A stretch of 64,000 nt of DNA from Phycisphaeraceae bacterium (GCA_007693965.1 RECQ01000036.1:124001-188000), one strand, 5' to 3'; shown: positions 18,983-30,275, counted from the first letter of the stretch. A program made the numbers and translations. The notes: generated from the letters alone by a model not told the origin.

Positions 18983-20773
18983 TCACAGCGAAGGCCGGCG
19001 CCGCCACAGGTCAAGCTCCATCTCCAGCGCATGGCCCAGCCGCAGCAGGGCGGCGTCTTCGTACAGCCTTCCCCACAGCGTCACTGCGAAGGGCGTTCCA
19101 TCTTCACGGAATCCCTGACGCAGCGTGATCGCCGGGTGGCCGGTCATGTTGGTGATGGCGTGCATGGCGCCGTGGCGCGTGGGCGCGATCACGGCGTCGA
19201 TATTCTCGTAGAGAGCCGCCGTCTGGCGCATCAGGCGGCCGCGTATGCGCTGGGCCTGCACATACTCCACCGCCGGCGCCAGTCGGGCCATGCGGAAGGT
19301 GTTCGGCCACGCGGCGTCGTCCTGCCAGCGCATCTGTTCATCCTGCCCGGAGCGCGTCAACTCGTCGAACGCCGCCGCCGCCTCGATGCCGATGAGGAAG
19401 AAGATCGCGCCGCCGAAGGGGCCCTGCGGCATATCAATCGGCGTCAGCTTCGCGCCGAGCTTTTCGAGCGCTTTCAGTGTTTCACGATCGGCGTCCGTCG
19501 CCGTGCGGCCTTTGTACTCGGCCTTCGAATACCCGATGCGCATGCCTTCGATCGAGCGCGTCATGTCAATGTTCAGCGGGATGTCGCGGGTGGACCGGTC
19601 GTGCGCATCGGGGCCGTCGATGGCGTCGAGCACCATGGCGCAGTCCTCGGCGCAGCGGCAGATGGGGCCGACCTTGTCGAGCGACCAGCACAGGGCCATG
19701 GCGCCGTGGCGCGAGACGCGCCCGAACGTGGGCCGGAACCCCGTGGCGCCGCAGCGGGCCGAGGGCGAGCCGATCGAGCCATACGTCTCTGTTCCAAGCG
19801 TGAAGGCGCACAATCCCGCCGCCACCGCCGCGGCGGACCCGGCGCTCGAGCCGCTCGACCCCTGCTCCAGGTTCCATGGGTTGTTCGTCCGCCCGCCGAA
19901 CCAGAGATCGCCGTACGCCAGTGCCCCCAGCGTGAGCTTGGCGACCAGCACGGCGCCCGCTTCATCGAGCATCTGCACCACCCGCGCATCGCGATCTGGC
20001 ACACGGTCCTTGTATGGCGCAGCGCCCCACGTCGTGCGCACGCCGCTGGTGTCAAAGAGATCCTTGGCGCCCCACGGAAGTCCGTGCAGCGGCCCGCGCC
20101 AGCGCCCGGCCCGGATCTCCTCATCCGCCCGCCGCGCCTGCGCCAGCGCCTGATCTTCCATCAGCGTCACCACGCACTCCAGCTTCGGATCAAGCCGCTT
20201 GAGGCGCCCGATGTAGAGCTTCGTCAGATCCTCACTGCTGAGGCGCCGCGTGCGCACCCAGTGCGAAAGCGCCCACGCCGGCGCAAAGGCGATGTCCTCC
20301 TCGTTCTGCGGCAGCGGCCCGGGGTCGGCGTTGCGCCACACCGCCCGGCGCCGGCGTGTCTCGAACTCCATCCCCGGCAGGCGCGGATCGAAAACCTCCG
20401 CCGGGCCATCTTCGTTGCGCAGCTCGATCGTGCGCTGGAAGTCGATCAATCCGAGCTGCCGGTCGATCGTGCGAAGCACCTGCTCGCGCTGTTCATTCGT
20501 GTATTGCAGCCGGGCCAGCTTCTCCGCCTCGGCGATGGTGCGCAGATCCACGCCCTGTGGAATGTCGGACTCGCCCTCGATCGCTTCATCAAGGACATCC
20601 TCGATCGCTTCCTGGAGCGTATCGGGCTGGCGAGCCCTCGCCGCGGCTCCCGGCACGCCCGCTCCCGCCGCCATGACGCCGGCGAGGGCCAGAAACCGTC
20701 GTCGATCGAACGCGATCTGCGGATCGACTTCGCTGCGAACACCAGGTGCGATTGAGCGGGTATCCCGGGCCAT
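18983..20773 (-). CDS. Tat-exported amidase-signature hydrolase
   Basis: 596 residues. The N-terminus has a twin-arginine signal (DRRRFLALAGVMAAGAGVPG, about residues 23-42). The amidase-signature core begins near residue 205: catalytic Lys in LPWGAKDLFD, the Ser-cis-Ser loop in GSSGSSAGSAAAVA, and the nucleophile region ETYGSIGSPS, giving a complete Ser-cisSer-Lys triad. About 170 residues between signal and core are Glu/Arg-rich and not assignable. Family members hydrolyse carboxamides; an exported form would act on periplasmic or environmental amides or peptides. The C-terminus is unusually close to repeat element B. A decayed partial copy lies at 15434-15590. Confidence 0.9.
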   Translation of the reverse strand: MARDTRSIAPGVRSEVDPQIAFDRRRFLALAGVMAAGAGVPGAAARARQPDTLQEAIEDVLDEAIEGESDIPQGVDLRTIAEAEKLARLQYTNEQREQVLRTIDRQLGLIDFQRTIELRNEDGPAEVFDPRLPGMEFETRRRRAVWRNADPGPLPQNEEDIAFAPAWALSHWVRTRRLSSEDLTKLYIGRLKRLDPKLECVVTLMEDQALAQARRADEEIRAGRWRGPLHGLPWGAKDLFDTSGVRTTWGAAPYKDRVPDRDARVVQMLDEAGAVLVAKLTLGALAYGDLWFGGRTNNPWNLEQGSSGSSAGSAAAVAAGLCAFTLGTETYGSIGSPSARCGATGFRPTFGRVSRHGAMALCWSLDKVGPICRCAEDCAMVLDAIDGPDAHDRSTRDIPLNIDMTRSIEGMRIGYSKAEYKGRTATDADRETLKALEKLGAKLTPIDMPQGPFGGAIFFLIGIEAAAAFDELTRSGQDEQMRWQDDAAWPNTFRMARLAPAVEYVQAQRIRGRLMRQTAALYENIDAVIAPTRHGAMHAITNMTGHPAITLRQGFREDGTPFAVTLWGRLYEDAALLRLGHALEMELDLWRRRPSL

Positions 20774-22901: not shown

Positions 22902-25091
22902 ATGAAATCAGTTCATCGATACGCGCTCGCCAGGGGGGCTGCGGCTGTCGTTGCGCCGGCCCTGGCCGCGGCGGTTGTTTCCTGCGCCGCCATCACGCAC
23001 CCGGTCGCCCTCGCGCAGCGTTCCTCCCCGCCGTCGGGCATCGCCGAGGGATACATGAACCACGACGCCCTCCGCGACCGCGTCCGCGCTGTGGCCCGCG
23101 CCAACAGGAATTGCGACCTCTCGACCATCGGCGAGAGCCGCGAGGGGCGCGAGCTCTTCCTGCTCACGCTCTCCTCGGACCATGCCAGCGCCCACCGCCG
23201 CCCCGCCCTGCTCATCACAGCCGGCCTCGACGGGCGCCACTGGCTCGGCGCCGAAACCGCGGCGCGCGTCGCCGAGCGCATCCTCGATGAACACACAGAG
23301 ATGCTCGACGAATTGACCATCTACGTCATCCCCCGCGCCAACCCCGACGGAACCGAGCTCAACTTCGGCCCCGTCAACATGGGGAACATCGGCACGCTCC
23401 GCCCCGTCGATCTCGACCGCGATGGCGAAGTGAACGAGGACGGGCCGAACGATCTCGATGGCGACGGCGTCATCACCATGATGCGCTGCGCCAATCCTCC
23501 CCTCAGCGATACCCCCACCCACCTGCCCGACCCCCACGAGCCGCGTCTGATGAAGACGCCCGACTGGAGCAAGGGCGAACGCGCCACCCACATCCTCTAC
23601 ACAGAGGGAATCGACGAGGACGGCGACGGCAGAATCGCCGAGGACGGCCCCGGCTTCGTCGATCTCGACCGCAACTTCATGCACCTCTGGCCCGAACATG
23701 ACACCGCCGGCGGCGCCGGGCCCTACCAGCTCAGCGAACCCGAATCGCTCGCCCTCGCGAAGTTCGTCTTCGAGCACACCAACATCGCCATGGCCATCAC
23801 CTACGGTCGCCATGACAACATGATCAACGTCCCCGACCACCGCGGCCGCGACACCAACCGGCGCATCGTCACCGGCATCGACGAGGGCGACAAAGCCCTC
23901 TACGACGAGCTCTCCAAGCTCTTCAAGGAAACGACCGAGCAGAAGCGCGCTCCGAAGGAAGACATCGCCGGCAGCTTCCACGCCTGGCTCTACGCCCAGC
24001 GCGGCGTGCCCAGCGTCGCCACCGTCGTGTGGGGACGCCCCGATGTCGAGAAACCGAAAACAGATGAAGAAGCCGACAACGGCGAAGCCCCCCGCGAAGA
24101 AGCCGAAGAGCCCGCAGCGCCCGCCGCCGATCCGCTGGCGGGATCGTGGAGCGGCGAGATCGCCCTTCCCATGATGGAAGGCATGGAGGACGCGCCGCGC
24201 AGGCTCGATGTCACGCTCAACCTCGAAGTGACGGACGGGACCGACGTCGCCGGCTCGCTCACATCCATGATGGGCGACATCGAGCTCTCCGGAACGAAAG
24301 ATCCCGGCTCTCCCGCCGTCACGCTCACCGGCCAGATGGGCGGCGCCGTGATCACCATCCCAGCAACCGCGGCCGGCGACGACCTCCGGGCCCAGATCAC
24401 CGGCCCCATGCCCGGCGCCATGACGCTGAACGCGAAGCGCGAGGGCGGACCGCCCGACGCCGGCGAAACCGGGGCGGGGACGCCCCGGCCCGCGAGGAAG
24501 GAGGGCCCCGCCGACGCCGAAGCCGCGGCGTGGCTGGAATACTCCGACAGCCGCGGCGGGGTCGGCTTCGTCGAGTGGACCACCTTCGACCATCCCCAGC
24601 TCGGCGAAGTCGAGATCGGCGGCTTCGTCCCCGGCTTCACCATGAACCCGCCCGCCGACGAGCTGGACGGGCTCGCAGAAAAGCAGGCCGCCTTCGCCAT
24701 CGCGCTCGCCGACAAGCGCCCGCGCCTCAGCGTGCAGGGCCCGGATGTGAAGCGACTCGCCTCCGGCCTGTACGACGTGCGCATCGCCATCGTCAACGAC
24801 GGCTGGCTGCCCACGCGCACCGCCATGGGCGCCCGGGCCCGCGCCATGCTCCCCACCGTGCTGCGCCTCTCGACGCCGATTGACAACATCGTCACCGGCG
24901 AGCGCATCGACCGCGCGTGGCGCATCGACGGCCTCTCGCGCCACGACGCCCACTGGATCCTCGCCGTCGAGGACGGCGCAACCATTGAGATCGAACTGCT
25001 GGACGATCAGCTCGGCGACCGGCTGATCCGCTTCACCGCCGATGAGAACACGACCGTCGATATGACCGACCTGCCGGAGGACCGCCGATGA
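22902..25091 (+). CDS. M14 carboxypeptidase-like protein lacking catalytic residues (pseudo-peptidase) with inserted beta-rich domain
   Basis: 729 residues with an N-terminal export signal (hydrophobic ~15-35). The M14 zinc-carboxypeptidase fold is recognisable by close parallel to the next gene: ELTIYVIPRANPDG, DRDGEVNEDGPNDLDGDG, DEDGDGRIAEDGPG and DLDRNF. But the zinc motif HxxE is replaced by Asp110-G-R-His113 (AGLDGRHWLGAE), the third ligand His by Gly302 (TYGRHDN), and the catalytic Glu by Val375 (SVATVVWG). The aligned residues in the next gene are His105, Glu108, His300 and Glu373, all intact. After an acidic Pro/Ala linker (~390-410), a ~120-residue domain is inserted (AGSWSGEIALPM...), alternating hydrophobic and rich in Gly, like a lipocalin-type beta barrel; the M14 C-terminal region then resumes. 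Ribosome site AGAGGAC. The stop overlaps the next start (ATGA). Confidence 0.82.
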   Translation: MKSVHRYALARGAAAVVAPALAAAVVSCAAITHPVALAQRSSPPSGIAEGYMNHDALRDRVRAVARANRNCDLSTIGESREGRELFLLTLSSDHASAHRRPALLITAGLDGRHWLGAETAARVAERILDEHTEMLDELTIYVIPRANPDGTELNFGPVNMGNIGTLRPVDLDRDGEVNEDGPNDLDGDGVITMMRCANPPLSDTPTHLPDPHEPRLMKTPDWSKGERATHILYTEGIDEDGDGRIAEDGPGFVDLDRNFMHLWPEHDTAGGAGPYQLSEPESLALAKFVFEHTNIAMAITYGRHDNMINVPDHRGRDTNRRIVTGIDEGDKALYDELSKLFKETTEQKRAPKEDIAGSFHAWLYAQRGVPSVATVVWGRPDVEKPKTDEEADNGEAPREEAEEPAAPAADPLAGSWSGEIALPMMEGMEDAPRRLDVTLNLEVTDGTDVAGSLTSMMGDIELSGTKDPGSPAVTLTGQMGGAVITIPATAAGDDLRAQITGPMPGAMTLNAKREGGPPDAGETGAGTPRPARKEGPADAEAAAWLEYSDSRGGVGFVEWTTFDHPQLGEVEIGGFVPGFTMNPPADELDGLAEKQAAFAIALADKRPRLSVQGPDVKRLASGLYDVRIAIVNDGWLPTRTAMGARARAMLPTVLRLSTPIDNIVTGERIDRAWRIDGLSRHDAHWILAVEDGATIEIELLDDQLGDRLIRFTADENTTVDMTDLPEDRR

Positions 25092-26890
25092 ACACCTTCT
25101 TCAACCGCTCGAATCTCTTCATCGCCGGCGCCCTCCTGCTCACGGCGGTCTTCGCGCCGCGGGCCGCGCTGGCCCAGCAGCAGATCGACAGCCGCGTCGA
25201 CATCGCCTGGAACCGCTACTACGACTTCGAAGAGTGCGAGCAGATCATGCGCCGCCTCGCCGACGCCTACCCCGAGCTGCTGACGCTGAAGTCCATCGGC
25301 AAGTCGGAGCAGGGGCGCGACATGTGGCTGATGATCCTCAACAACCCCGAGACCGGGCCGCACGAGGACAAGCCCGCCATGTGGATCGACGGCTCGATCC
25401 ACGCCAACGAGATCCAGTCCACCGAAACGACGCTCTACTCCATCTGGTACCTCGCGAGCGCCTACGGCCAGGTGAAGCCGCTCACCGAGCTGGTGGACCG
25501 CGTCGCGTTCTACTTCCTGCCCATCGTCAACCCCGACGGCCGGGCCGCGTGGTTCGAAGGGCCGGCGACGCCGCACATGTTCCGCTCCGGCCTTCGCCCC
25601 ACCGATCTCGACTTCGACGGCCGCAAGGACGAAGACGGCCCCGACGACCTCACCGAAACCGGCAGCATCAACATCATGTGGCGTCCCGACCCGCACGGCA
25701 CGCACCGGCGCAATCCGAAAGATCCGCGGATCTTCGAGCGCGTCGGCCCCGATGAAACCGGCGACTGGTCCTTCGCGGGCTGGGAAGGCGTTGACCGCGA
25801 CGGCGACGGCCGCCGAAACGAAGACGGCCCCGGCGGCTACGACATGAACCGCAACTGGCCCAGCGACTGGCAGCCCAACCACGTGCAGCGCGGCGCCGGG
25901 GACTACCCCTTCAGCTATCCCGAAACCCGCGCTGTCGGCATGTTCATCCTCGACCATCCCAACATCGCCGCGGGCCAGGCGTACCACAACACCGGCGGCA
26001 TGCTCCTCCGCGGCCCCGGCGCCGCCTACAACGAGGCCATCTATCCCCGCTCCGACATCCAGGTCTACGACAAGCTCGGCAAGGCCGGCGAAGAGATGCT
26101 CCCCCACTACAACTACTGGGTCATCCACGCCGATCTCTACACCGTGCACGGCGGCTTCGTGAACTGGCTCGCCGAGGGCCTCGGCATCATCAGCTTCACC
26201 AACGAGCTGTGGACCGATCGGCGCATACTCCAGAGCGGGCAGAACCCCACCGCCGAGCAGCGCATGCGCTGGCAGGACCGCGTCCTCTTCGGCCAGACCT
26301 TCGACGACTGGCAGGAATACGACCATCCCGAGCTCGGCCCCGTCCTCATCGGCGGCGGGACCAAGTTCTCCAGCCGCACCCCGCCCCCCTTCATGCTCGA
26401 AGAAGAATGCCACCGCAACTTCGCCTTCACCGTCTTCCACGCCATGAACATGCCCGAGATCAGCTTCGGCTGGACCGAGGTGAAGCGCGCCGGCGCCCCC
26501 GGAAACGCCGAAGGAAGCGACCTGTGGCGCATCACCCTCGAGATCGACAACAAGCGCATCATCCCCACACGCACCGGCATCGCGGCCCAGCGCGGCATCG
26601 GCACGCCCGACCGCCTCACACTCAGCGGCGAGGGCGTCGAGGTCGTGGCGGCGGGCACGCTGGGCCACCGCTTCGACCGCACCATGACGCCCACGCAGCA
26701 GAGCCCGCACCGGCCGCACATCGTCCTGAGTGAAGACGGCGTCCCCGGCGAAGGCCGCCGCACCTACCGCTTCTTCGTGCGGGCCGCCGAGGGCGCGGAG
26801 CTGACATTGCGCTACACTGCCGAGAAGGCCCGCGACATCGAGACGACCATCCGCATCGAGGAGGGGGTGATTGAGAGTGCTGAGTTCTGA
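25088..26890 (+). CDS. Secreted M14-family zinc carboxypeptidase
   Basis: 600 residues with an N-terminal signal peptide (LFIAGALLLTAVFAPRAALA, cleavage after ~ALA). Complete M14 active site: zinc ligands His105 and Glu108 in DGSIHANEIQS, His300 in GQAYHNTGG, substrate Arg in YDMNRNWP, and catalytic Glu373 in SFTNELW. The two DxDG-rich insertions (DFDGRKDEDGPDD and DRDGDGRRNEDGPGG) may bind Ca2+ by analogy with other Asp-rich loops. It is likely a periplasmic or secreted exopeptidase. The start codon overlaps the stop of the preceding pseudo-peptidase by 4 bp, so translation is coupled and the two products are probably made in fixed ratio. The last residues (ESAEF) and the TGA stop come from a GAGTNCY heptamer array. 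Confidence 0.9.
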   Translation: MNTFFNRSNLFIAGALLLTAVFAPRAALAQQQIDSRVDIAWNRYYDFEECEQIMRRLADAYPELLTLKSIGKSEQGRDMWLMILNNPETGPHEDKPAMWIDGSIHANEIQSTETTLYSIWYLASAYGQVKPLTELVDRVAFYFLPIVNPDGRAAWFEGPATPHMFRSGLRPTDLDFDGRKDEDGPDDLTETGSINIMWRPDPHGTHRRNPKDPRIFERVGPDETGDWSFAGWEGVDRDGDGRRNEDGPGGYDMNRNWPSDWQPNHVQRGAGDYPFSYPETRAVGMFILDHPNIAAGQAYHNTGGMLLRGPGAAYNEAIYPRSDIQVYDKLGKAGEEMLPHYNYWVIHADLYTVHGGFVNWLAEGLGIISFTNELWTDRRILQSGQNPTAEQRMRWQDRVLFGQTFDDWQEYDHPELGPVLIGGGTKFSSRTPPPFMLEEECHRNFAFTVFHAMNMPEISFGWTEVKRAGAPGNAEGSDLWRITLEIDNKRIIPTRTGIAAQRGIGTPDRLTLSGEGVEVVAAGTLGHRFDRTMTPTQQSPHRPHIVLSEDGVPGEGRRTYRFFVRAAEGAELTLRYTAEKARDIETTIRIEEGVIESAEF

Positions 26891-27638: not shown

Positions 27639-28523
27639 TCACCGGCGCCGACGCGCCAGTGCAGCGCCGCCGAGCGCGAAGAACGCCGCAGCGCCCGGAG
27701 CGGGGACGACCCGGAAGACGCTGTCCGGGAAGCTGCCGTCGAAGAAGGTGTCTCCGCCGTCCGAAGACACGAGGGGAGTCAGGTCGTTGCGGTTGTCCCA
27801 CGCCCAGTTGTCCATGCTGAGGGCGAGATTGACAACGTAGAAGCCCTCCTGGCCCGCGGCCGTCGAAGTGATCTCGAACAGCCCCGAGATCGAGCCCGAC
27901 ACGTCGGTCGGCTGGTTGGTGGATTCGATGACTCCCGGCGAAATGCCGACGCCTTCGAGGCCGGTCGCGGTGAGGTTGATGGCGTAGCCATGCCAAACGC
28001 CGCCGTCGCCGTTGTTGCCCATGGCGCTGAAGCGCGAAAACTGATCCTCACCCGCATTCTCGCCTGTGACGGAGAGATCAAACGTGGTGTAGAACGAGCC
28101 ATCGAAGTCGGAGAAGGACATCGAAACACCCGTAGTCGAGACGGCGCCGATGTCGAACATCTGGAGGAAGCCGACGCCGGTGTTTCCGGTCGTGTTGCCC
28201 CAGCCGGCCCGCCCCTCGGTGGGCGAATAGAAGGTGTCGGTGGTGTGCCACCATGCGCCGAGGAACTGCGTGCGGTCGGCGACGCTCGTGTCGTCGCTCG
28301 CGACCACCATCGCCAGATCGCGATCCGTGATGTTGATGGTGTCGGTGCTGTTCACACCCGCCAGCGCATCCGCCATCGTGTCATAGCGCAGGGCAGTTCC
28401 CTCGTAGCCGAAGCGGTTCGTCGAGACGAAACCGGCGTCGACGGCGAGGGCAGGCAGCGTCGCGACATGCCCGAACGCGCACGCGCCGACAGCCGCTGAC
28501 AGAATCAGTGTTCGATTCAACAT
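27639..28523 (-). CDS. Secreted protein with PEP-CTERM-like C-terminal anchor
   Basis: 294 residues from ATG 28523, which has GAGGAAG 6 nt upstream; the frame is open 9 codons further. The signal peptide is MLNRTLILSAAVGACAFG. The mature region is Thr/Ser/Asp-rich and beta-like (VSMSFSDFDGSFYTTFDLSV). The C-terminus is VPAPGAAAFFALGGAALARRRR: short Pro-containing motif, hydrophobic helix, Arg cluster, as in proteins processed by exosortase-type enzymes. Passenger function not recognised; surface or extracellular-matrix localisation is inferred. It has its own terminator. Confidence 0.82.
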   Translation of the reverse strand: MLNRTLILSAAVGACAFGHVATLPALAVDAGFVSTNRFGYEGTALRYDTMADALAGVNSTDTINITDRDLAMVVASDDTSVADRTQFLGAWWHTTDTFYSPTEGRAGWGNTTGNTGVGFLQMFDIGAVSTTGVSMSFSDFDGSFYTTFDLSVTGENAGEDQFSRFSAMGNNGDGGVWHGYAINLTATGLEGVGISPGVIESTNQPTDVSGSISGLFEITSTAAGQEGFYVVNLALSMDNWAWDNRNDLTPLVSSDGGDTFFDGSFPDSVFRVVPAPGAAAFFALGGAALARRRR

Positions 28524-28861
28524 ATTTCTTCCTCTCAAATTAATTCCCACACCTGGTCAAGTGGACGTAAAACTCGACCAATTCGCAATCCGTCACTCTC
28601 CCAATCACGACACTCAATGTCAAGTGAGAAACCATCCATCGCGGGACATCCCGGCTGACGTTCGCTCTTGAAATGTGTATCTGGGAGAACTGATGAAGGC
28701 GCGGTGTTTCGAGTCCTCTGCGCTCCCGGCAGACCACCATCGTTCTTCGATGTCGCGGCAGACTGCAGTCAAGGCTGCCGGCATGAAAAAACCGGCCCCT
28801 GCGCGAGCAGAGGCCGGTGTACATGGTTATCAGGCCATATGTGATGCAGGGAATCCCTGAA
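28524..28861. other. Intergenic stretch between two leftward PEP-CTERM-like genes
   Basis: About 340 bp with lower G+C than the genes. It holds the terminator of the upstream leftward gene (28785-28818) and presumably the promoter of the downstream one; no coding sequence is supported. Confidence 0.45.
28785..28818 (-). terminator. Rho-independent terminator
   Basis: ACCGGCC ... GGCCGGT stem around a 14-nt loop, followed on the minus strand by TTTTTT. It is 44 bp past the stop of the leftward gene ending at 28862. Confidence 0.75.
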
Positions 28862-29797
28862 TCACCGACGACGACGCATCCCCGCAAGACCACCGAGCGC
28901 GAAGAGCGCAACGGCGCCGGGCGAAGGAATCATCACCAGGCTGAGGTACTGACCGGAGACGCTCGAGCCGGCGCCGTCAAAGACGTTGTCAGAACCGACC
29001 CAGAAGCCGGCGCCGTTGGTCCACATGATCTCGCCGTTGCCGAGCATGTAGGCGCCGCGGGGGCCGAGGTTTTCGCCGGCGACGATGCCGAGGCTGTCGC
29101 CGTTCGTATCAATCTCGTAGACGCCGGAGGTGTTGCCGCCCGCAGCGGAGAACCCGGCCACAAGCACGTTGCCGTTGTCGAGCTCGAAGAGCTGCTGCGG
29201 GAATCGCAGTCCCGGCGCAACGGGCGTATGGAACGTGCTCACGAATTCGCCGTTCAGATCGTGCGTATCCAGTGTGTGATCCGACAGGTTGCTGGCGAGC
29301 ACTCCACCCTGGTGATTGATCACGTCAAACAGCGATGCATTGGTGGGGGTGCTGCCGGTGATGGAGGCGGTGGCGATGTCAATCTTGACGATCGCGTTGC
29401 CGGGCGCATCGTTGTTGGATCCGGCGTTGGTGACCCACACTTCGTTTCCGACGACCTCCATGCCTCTGATGTTGTCGAGGCCGCCGCCGGCGACCTGGCC
29501 GCCGATGTTGGTGATGAAGTTCCCGCTGAGGTCGAAGCGATAGACCGTGTCGCGGATCTGGTCCGATACCCAGATCTCGTTGCCGACCTGGAGCGCATGC
29601 TTGGCCGTGCTGCCGCCATCGAGCAGTTCGTCCCACTCGAGGTAGTTCTGCTGCACCAGCGCGCCGGTGTCGGGGTCGAACAGGTGCGCCGCATTGGCTG
29701 ACGAATCGACGCCGATCACGAAGGGCACAAGTGTCGCAGATGCAGTTGAAGCGGTCGCAAACATACCGATCGCTGCGAGGGATAACAGGGTTCTCAT
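28862..29797 (-). CDS. Secreted beta-propeller-like protein with PEP-CTERM-like anchor
   Basis: 311 residues from ATG 29797, preceded by GGAAGGAGAT; the frame runs much further upstream but only through AT-rich intergenic DNA. Signal peptide MRTLLSLAAIGMFATASTAS. The mature part has repeated blade-like segments (NEIWVSDQIRDTVYRFDLSG, NEVWVTNAGSNND, NGNVLVAGFSAAGG), typical of NHL/SMP-30-like propellers. The C-terminus IPSPGAVALFALGGLAGMRRRR is the anchor/sorting signal. No catalytic residues are identifiable; a role as a surface or matrix protein is inference. Confidence 0.82.
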   Translation of the reverse strand: MRTLLSLAAIGMFATASTASATLVPFVIGVDSSANAAHLFDPDTGALVQQNYLEWDELLDGGSTAKHALQVGNEIWVSDQIRDTVYRFDLSGNFITNIGGQVAGGGLDNIRGMEVVGNEVWVTNAGSNNDAPGNAIVKIDIATASITGSTPTNASLFDVINHQGGVLASNLSDHTLDTHDLNGEFVSTFHTPVAPGLRFPQQLFELDNGNVLVAGFSAAGGNTSGVYEIDTNGDSLGIVAGENLGPRGAYMLGNGEIMWTNGAGFWVGSDNVFDGAGSSVSGQYLSLVMIPSPGAVALFALGGLAGMRRRR

Positions 29798-30275
29798 ACA
29801 ACAAATCTCCTTCCAGATACACGGAATACGACAACGAGGCGCCTTCGATAGTGCAGCGCGCGCATCACGTGCCTTGATGTGTGTGGAGGGAGAGCTGTCT
29901 CCGATCTGGAACAACTCTGCTGACGTGCTTCCTCCACCTTTCAGTCGCATATTATCACAGTGTTCAGTGCAGATAAAGATTGAATCGTGCAGTTCAATAA
30001 GATTTACACTTCCAGATGGCACGATGACATGTCCCCGGCCCATGGCGCGCCCCAGCGTCTCTGTTCGCAGGCAGTGACGCGTGCATCCACAGAATATTGG
30101 TCAGCGCATGCGGCGTGCGTTGTGCGAAAAATGCACGTCTGGCGTATGCAACCCGCAGTGTTCGCCCCCGAACATCCACGACCTCGCCTCACGAGGCCTT
30201 CGAATGGCCTCTGTAGAATGCGTCAGAGTGCATCCGAAGCCGCCCGGTCACACTGAACAAACAGGGAACAACACA
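29798..30275. other. Divergent intergenic region, AT-richer
   Basis: About 480 bp between the leftward propeller gene and the rightward ppc gene. Long open frames cross it in both directions as upstream extensions of the flanking genes, but the translated sequence is Cys/His-rich and unlike protein. It must contain both promoters. Confidence 0.45.
29951..29956 (-). promoter_or_regulatory. Candidate extended -10 for the leftward PEP-CTERM-like gene
   Basis: On the minus strand, TGTGATAAT gives a GATAAT -10 box with an upstream TG, in an AT-rich island 154 bp before the gene start. No convincing -35 element. Weak evidence. Confidence 0.25.

Follow-up and report, generated by a model that had tools for sequence, protein, structure and literature searches.

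A Coupled Gene Pair Predicted to Encode a Live and a Dead M14 Peptidase in Bacteria

Described Relatives of the Pair

Pseudoenzyme-enzyme pairs are a general means of controlling catalysis. The M14 pseudopeptidases treated in a recent review are eukaryotic and mostly of unclear function (PMC11266112). The M14 cases in this 2024 review of metallopeptidase pseudoenzymes come from vertebrates, Drosophila, and yeast only, and comprise AEBP1/ACLP, CPXM1, CPXM2, domain III of CPD (CPD-III), and Ecm14 (PMC11266112). In M16B, several active/inactive heterodimers have been described, namely MPP alpha/beta, TTHA1264/TTHA1265, SPH2681/SPH2682, and AlbF/AlbE; in the Thermus pair, the partner is encoded by the neighbouring gene (PMC12731061).

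With regard to the M14 enzymes themselves, carboxypeptidase T and pancreatic carboxypeptidase A (M14A) have the closest solved folds to the two proteins described here, and their catalytic residues are shared by one of the two, B. Unlike this pair, they are single active enzymes, and the pancreatic forms are zymogens with a propeptide. To our knowledge, they have neither Asp-rich loops of the kind found here nor a dead partner. Human carboxypeptidase N, a secreted M14 enzyme, has a non-catalytic subunit, which is a leucine-rich-repeat protein and not an M14 paralogue.

Gene Layout, Folds, and Active Sites

The window, that is, the whole 64,000-nucleotide stretch of DNA from a Phycisphaeraceae bacterium that was analysed, contains two adjacent plus-strand genes, ORF A (22902-25091, 729 aa) and ORF B (25088-26890, 600 aa), whose products are referred to as A and B; all features of the pair given below are on this strand. 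As the first-pass annotation had noticed, the two genes overlap by ATGA, with the start of B on the stop of A (25088-25091). A promoter and terminator scan returned no site on the plus strand of the A-B operon. Both N termini read as signal-peptide-like; in A, this segment covers residues 1-39 (22902-23018), where model confidence is low.

Elsewhere in the window, two minus-strand genes (27639-28550 and 28862-30043) encode proteins that end in a hydrophobic stretch followed by RRRR, like exosortase (PEP-CTERM-type) sorting signals, and neither protein has a match in Pfam or NCBIfam. Another minus-strand product (18983-20773) is of the Amidase family (Pfam, 5.2e-79) and has a long N-terminal extension with a Tat-like RRRF motif.

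Both A and B are M14 proteins in sequence and fold. Pfam Peptidase_M14 matches A at 2.2e-22 and B at 1.4e-46, and AlphaFold2 (AF2), run on natural alignments, gave models with pLDDT 88.7 and pTM 0.80 for A and pLDDT 91.8 and pTM 0.90 for B. The best structural matches of both models are carboxypeptidase T and the pancreatic carboxypeptidases (Z 32.0 over 291 residues at 2.7 A for A; Z 39.0 over 302 residues at 2.5-2.6 A for B). By sequence alignment the two are paralogues over nearly their whole length, the insert of A excepted: BLASTP aligns them at 8e-36 with 30% identity and finds a further C-terminal segment at 5e-13, and profile-profile comparison gives E 3.1e-80 over 507 columns, with D110 of A opposite H105 of B. 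In the models, the last M14 helix is formed by residues 434-453 in B, with its counterpart at 585-604 in A, and both proteins end in a beta-rich domain (residues 609-723 of A, 24726-25070, aligned to B; residues 458-596 of B, 26459-26875). Residue 35 of the B model aligns to residue 2 of the carboxypeptidase A chain, the mature start, and B therefore appears to lack a propeptide.

Two Asp-rich loops are kept in both copies, as had been proposed on first reading, and DxDxDGxxxEDGP is near-invariant in A and B. Loop 1 spans residues 170-189 of A (23409-23468) and 173-192 of B (25604-25663); its acidic residues are invariant in both, and it may be a Ca2+ site. Loop 2 spans residues 235-248 of A (23604-23645), where the acidic residues are also invariant, and 233-246 of B (25784-25825), both loops being conserved in B. 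Since the loops are present in unpaired relatives such as L173 and L192, they probably predate the A/B split.

B is predicted to be a zinc carboxypeptidase with an intact catalytic set. In the alignment, H69, E72, N144, R145, H196, Y248, and E270 of carboxypeptidase A correspond to H105, E108, N254, R255, H300, Y351, and E373 of B. These include the zinc motif H105-A-N-E108 (25400-25411), the Asn144-Arg145 substrate carboxylate site (N254-R255, 25847-25852), the zinc ligand H300 (25985-25987), Y351 (26138-26140), and the general base E373 (26204-26206). In addition, V358 of B lies at the position of Ile255 of carboxypeptidase A, which we take to be a guide to C-terminal specificity, and this small hydrophobic residue suggests a possible preference of B for hydrophobic C-terminal residues.

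On the other hand, A, which has the fold but not the catalytic residues, is predicted to be an M14 pseudopeptidase without zinc or peptidase activity. Its HxxE site is degenerate (D110-G-R-H113, 23229-23240), G302 stands at the place of the zinc ligand His196 close to an A-specific conserved D305 (23805-23816), and V375 occupies that of the catalytic Glu270 (24024-24026). The first-pass annotation had read H105, E108, H300, and E373 in B and D110, H113, G302, and V375 in A, and all eight assignments were confirmed. Misalignment of A, which that annotation had named as one way the reading could fail, was rejected on the basis of the profile-profile alignment and the absence of HxxE from the whole A chain. 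B thus has the HxxE plus His zinc site and the Glu270 general base, and A has neither.

After removal of near-identical sequences, Glu270 was kept in none of 127 A-type sequences, and none had the full zinc site, whereas all 115 B sequences had the complete catalytic set. H, E, N, R, H, and E were also present in 20/20 unpaired relatives, in which the Tyr248 column is poorly aligned. Two A proteins are partly decayed: L168 keeps HxxE with Ser at H196 and Arg at E270, and L163 keeps E72 and H196 with Ala at H69 and Arg at E270. The general base has therefore gone in all A, while the zinc ligands appear to have been lost piecemeal. Arg at the Glu270 position also recurs in several further divergent A proteins. 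The catalytic positions of A show no convergence on a new common set, with the exception of G302 and D305, which are conserved in A (0.85 and 0.89, respectively) and differ from B and the unpaired relatives.

A second type of arrangement was also seen. In two Planctomycetota genomes, an adjacent M14-like pair (L195:3413-6435 and L196:3628-6755, both minus strand) seemingly lacks catalytic residues in both members; G383 carries a normal A-B pair elsewhere besides this second type.

The insert of A comprises residues 380-538 (24039-24515), as judged from the AF2 model and from variability among relatives. It lies between the Glu270 strand and the counterpart of the last M14 helix, a topology that would place it near the funnel mouth. 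The first-pass annotation had treated a beta-rich domain here as a gain of A. The domain is real, residues 414-514 or thereabouts (24141-24443) being predicted as eight strands, but it is lineage-specific and not the defining gain: it is present in L084 and absent from L140 and L038, and among 69 A proteins in which the insert site could be measured, the site holds 22 to 199 residues, for the most part acidic, Gly-rich, or helical. Pfam gave no match for the insert, and its domain has no second copy within its own genome. In related genomes, relatives of the insert (best E 1.5e-7) are embedded in long open frames, each some 1160-1400 aa in length, and the insert is therefore likely to be a mobile module that secreted peptidases of this group share; that it is lipocalin-like, from the eight strands and a GxW motif, is only a guess. 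By eye, L225-L227 look like tricorn/S41 peptidases and L224 like a metzincin, with the insert domain between acidic linkers.

Distribution, Phylogeny, and Selection

Of 101 related genomes, 43 hold A, and exactly these 43 also hold B; in G020, the A gene is truncated at a contig edge. Those apparent cases of B without A that were checked proved to be contig ends, except for an isolated 286-aa B fragment (L210, G339). At the loci inspected across several phyla, A precedes B on the same strand, or the locus runs into a contig edge. The -4 overlap of the ATGA type recurs in 58 of the 118 loci at which both genes are present, a set in which some genomes count twice, and in L095 the two genes are in one frame with the A stop codon between them. 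The pair, whose linkage in other genomes had been put forward for checking, is thus old and widespread, and conserved in linkage, order, and catalytic-residue loss across the genomes looked at. No third partner gene is universal around the pair loci; the genes upstream, a MacB-like permease among them, recur in sub-clades only.

When named genomes were scanned with the A alignment, 166 relatives emerged in total. The best 80 of these belong for the most part to Planctomycetota, with further ones in Gemmatimonadota (one of them on a 4.1-Mb chromosome, CP070829.1), Acidobacteriota with Aminicenantes, an Opitutus MAG, and Rufibacter immobilis (Bacteroidota), which is an isolate carrying the pair. 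The Rufibacter A protein (L159) is 553 aa long and lacks a large insert. Among 294 sampled Planctomycetota genomes, a B-like match occurs in 80, a count that takes in unpaired relatives. The unpaired M14 relatives L173-L194 are apparently active and have no A neighbour in the stretch of DNA covered.

In the FastTree phylogeny, B forms a separate clade with support of 1.0, the A clade has support of only 0.48, and the unpaired active relatives group nearer B than A does. In an interim IQ-TREE tree without support values, the A clade leaves out two divergent A sequences, perhaps by long-branch attraction. The original proposal of a duplication in which one copy turned non-catalytic therefore stands in part: A is a non-catalytic M14 homologue, but according to the tree, in which its clade is weakly supported, it is not a recent copy of B.

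Purifying selection acts on A, with pN/pS in close pairs of 0.11-0.24 (0.06-0.25 for B). A diverges about 1.4 times faster than B, and the A and B distances correlate (r 0.85, 111 pairs), which fits the co-inheritance of linked genes and does not itself show contact. Residues invariant in paired B only include, in particular, H442, R443, N444, Q110, N301, and N372; the H442-R443-N444 stretch (26411-26419), which is found neither in unpaired relatives nor in A, provides candidate contact residues.

Possible Roles of A and Comparison with Known Systems

The cutting machinery has been lost in every A copy examined, yet the pair is kept, which suggests that the dead copy is retained as a working partner of live B. 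The strict coupling of the two genes in occurrence and order, and often in translation, and the lasting selection on a scaffold that is dead are best accounted for if A is a non-catalytic subunit. It appears somewhat more probable than the other readings combined that A and B form a secreted M14 carboxypeptidase together, as the two subunits of a heteromer. Counted in favour of this reading are the occurrence in the same 43/101 genomes, the gene order and overlap, the site loss, the selection, the paired-B-only residues, the lack of a universal third gene, and the M16B precedent. Counted against it is the existence of unpaired M14 relatives with intact sites, which indicates that the fold needs no A-like partner in general, as is the lack of a new shared residue set at the catalytic positions of A beyond G302 and D305.

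We infer secretion, A-B association, an effect on B, and the substrate. Briefly, catalysis would fall to B, as a zinc carboxypeptidase with no propeptide, and A would be an old paralogue that has lost the general base and zinc site while keeping the M14 scaffold, the C-terminal beta domain, and both Asp-rich loops. A would be made first, and translational coupling would lead to matched amounts of B; the two would associate after export. A might then shape or gate access to the B funnel, or dock substrates, and the variable insert beside its dead active-site mouth could serve as an adaptable contact module. A broader proposal, to which we give a little less than an even chance, is that bacteria of several phyla have a heteromeric M14 enzyme with a dead paralogue as obligate subunit, on which the activity or specificity of the live enzyme depends, and that the M16 arrangement has thus been reproduced independently.

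The nearest rival, to which the absence of a propeptide in B points, is that A is a trans-acting folding chaperone or inhibitor, a propeptide stand-in that keeps B silent until it is outside the cell and is then released. We regard this as unlikely, although it has a real share of the probability. B starts at the mature start of carboxypeptidase A, A is encoded first, and the pairing is strict, all of which would fit; however, unpaired active relatives of similar length have no adjoining A, and A keeps the whole M14 fold and the C-terminal domain, more than an inhibitor needs.

Less probable again is that A is an independent extracellular binding protein, for a ligand or matrix, that is merely co-expressed with B. 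Eukaryotic M14 pseudopeptidases are known to bind collagen and other partners (PMC11266112), and the highly variable insert site of A would suit such a role. Some solitary A would then be expected, but A without B was not found in the 101 related genomes, and the linkage persists across phyla. It is quite improbable that A-specific residues such as D305 have given A another kind of catalytic or metal site at the mouth of the old one: G302 and D305 are conserved in A, unlike in B and the unpaired relatives, but they are the only two near-invariant A-specific residues there, and no new His, Cys, or Glu ligands are conserved as a set in the region. Finally, a decaying pseudogene held by linkage, for which the variation of catalytic residues between lineages might speak, is scarcely credible given the long open frames across phyla and the invariant Asp-rich loops, and is effectively refuted by the pN/pS of 0.11-0.24.

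Bacteria offer active relatives that are unpaired, a clade of dead copies in which two early members are only partly decayed, and a live partner always found alongside in the genomes examined; the reason for keeping a dead peptidase is thus directly testable in bacteria, including the isolate Rufibacter immobilis. In addition, the M14 Pfam model alone miscounts dead A copies as peptidases.

Pseudoenzyme-enzyme pairs as such are already known; the bacterial dead-live M14 version appears new within the open-licence literature, in which no description of it was found. The eukaryotic M14 pseudopeptidases, which are secreted or extracellular, resemble A in having the M14 fold with catalytic residues lost, but they keep more of the site, several retaining H69 and E72, and an adjacent gene for an active M14 paralogue partner is not described for them in the review; CPD-III is joined to active domains in one chain, unlike the separate genes of A and B (PMC11266112). 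B has the HxxE of M14, not the HxxEH of the M16 fold, and both proteins match M14, while their gene arrangement is compatible with an active/inactive heterodimer of the M16B kind. M16B heterodimers belong to another family and fold, and their solved complexes show the dead half forming part of a closed chamber; like A and B, they combine a dead paralogue with an active metallopeptidase, and the arrangement proposed here, with its putative contact, is comparable to that of alpha-MPP/beta-MPP (PMC12731061).
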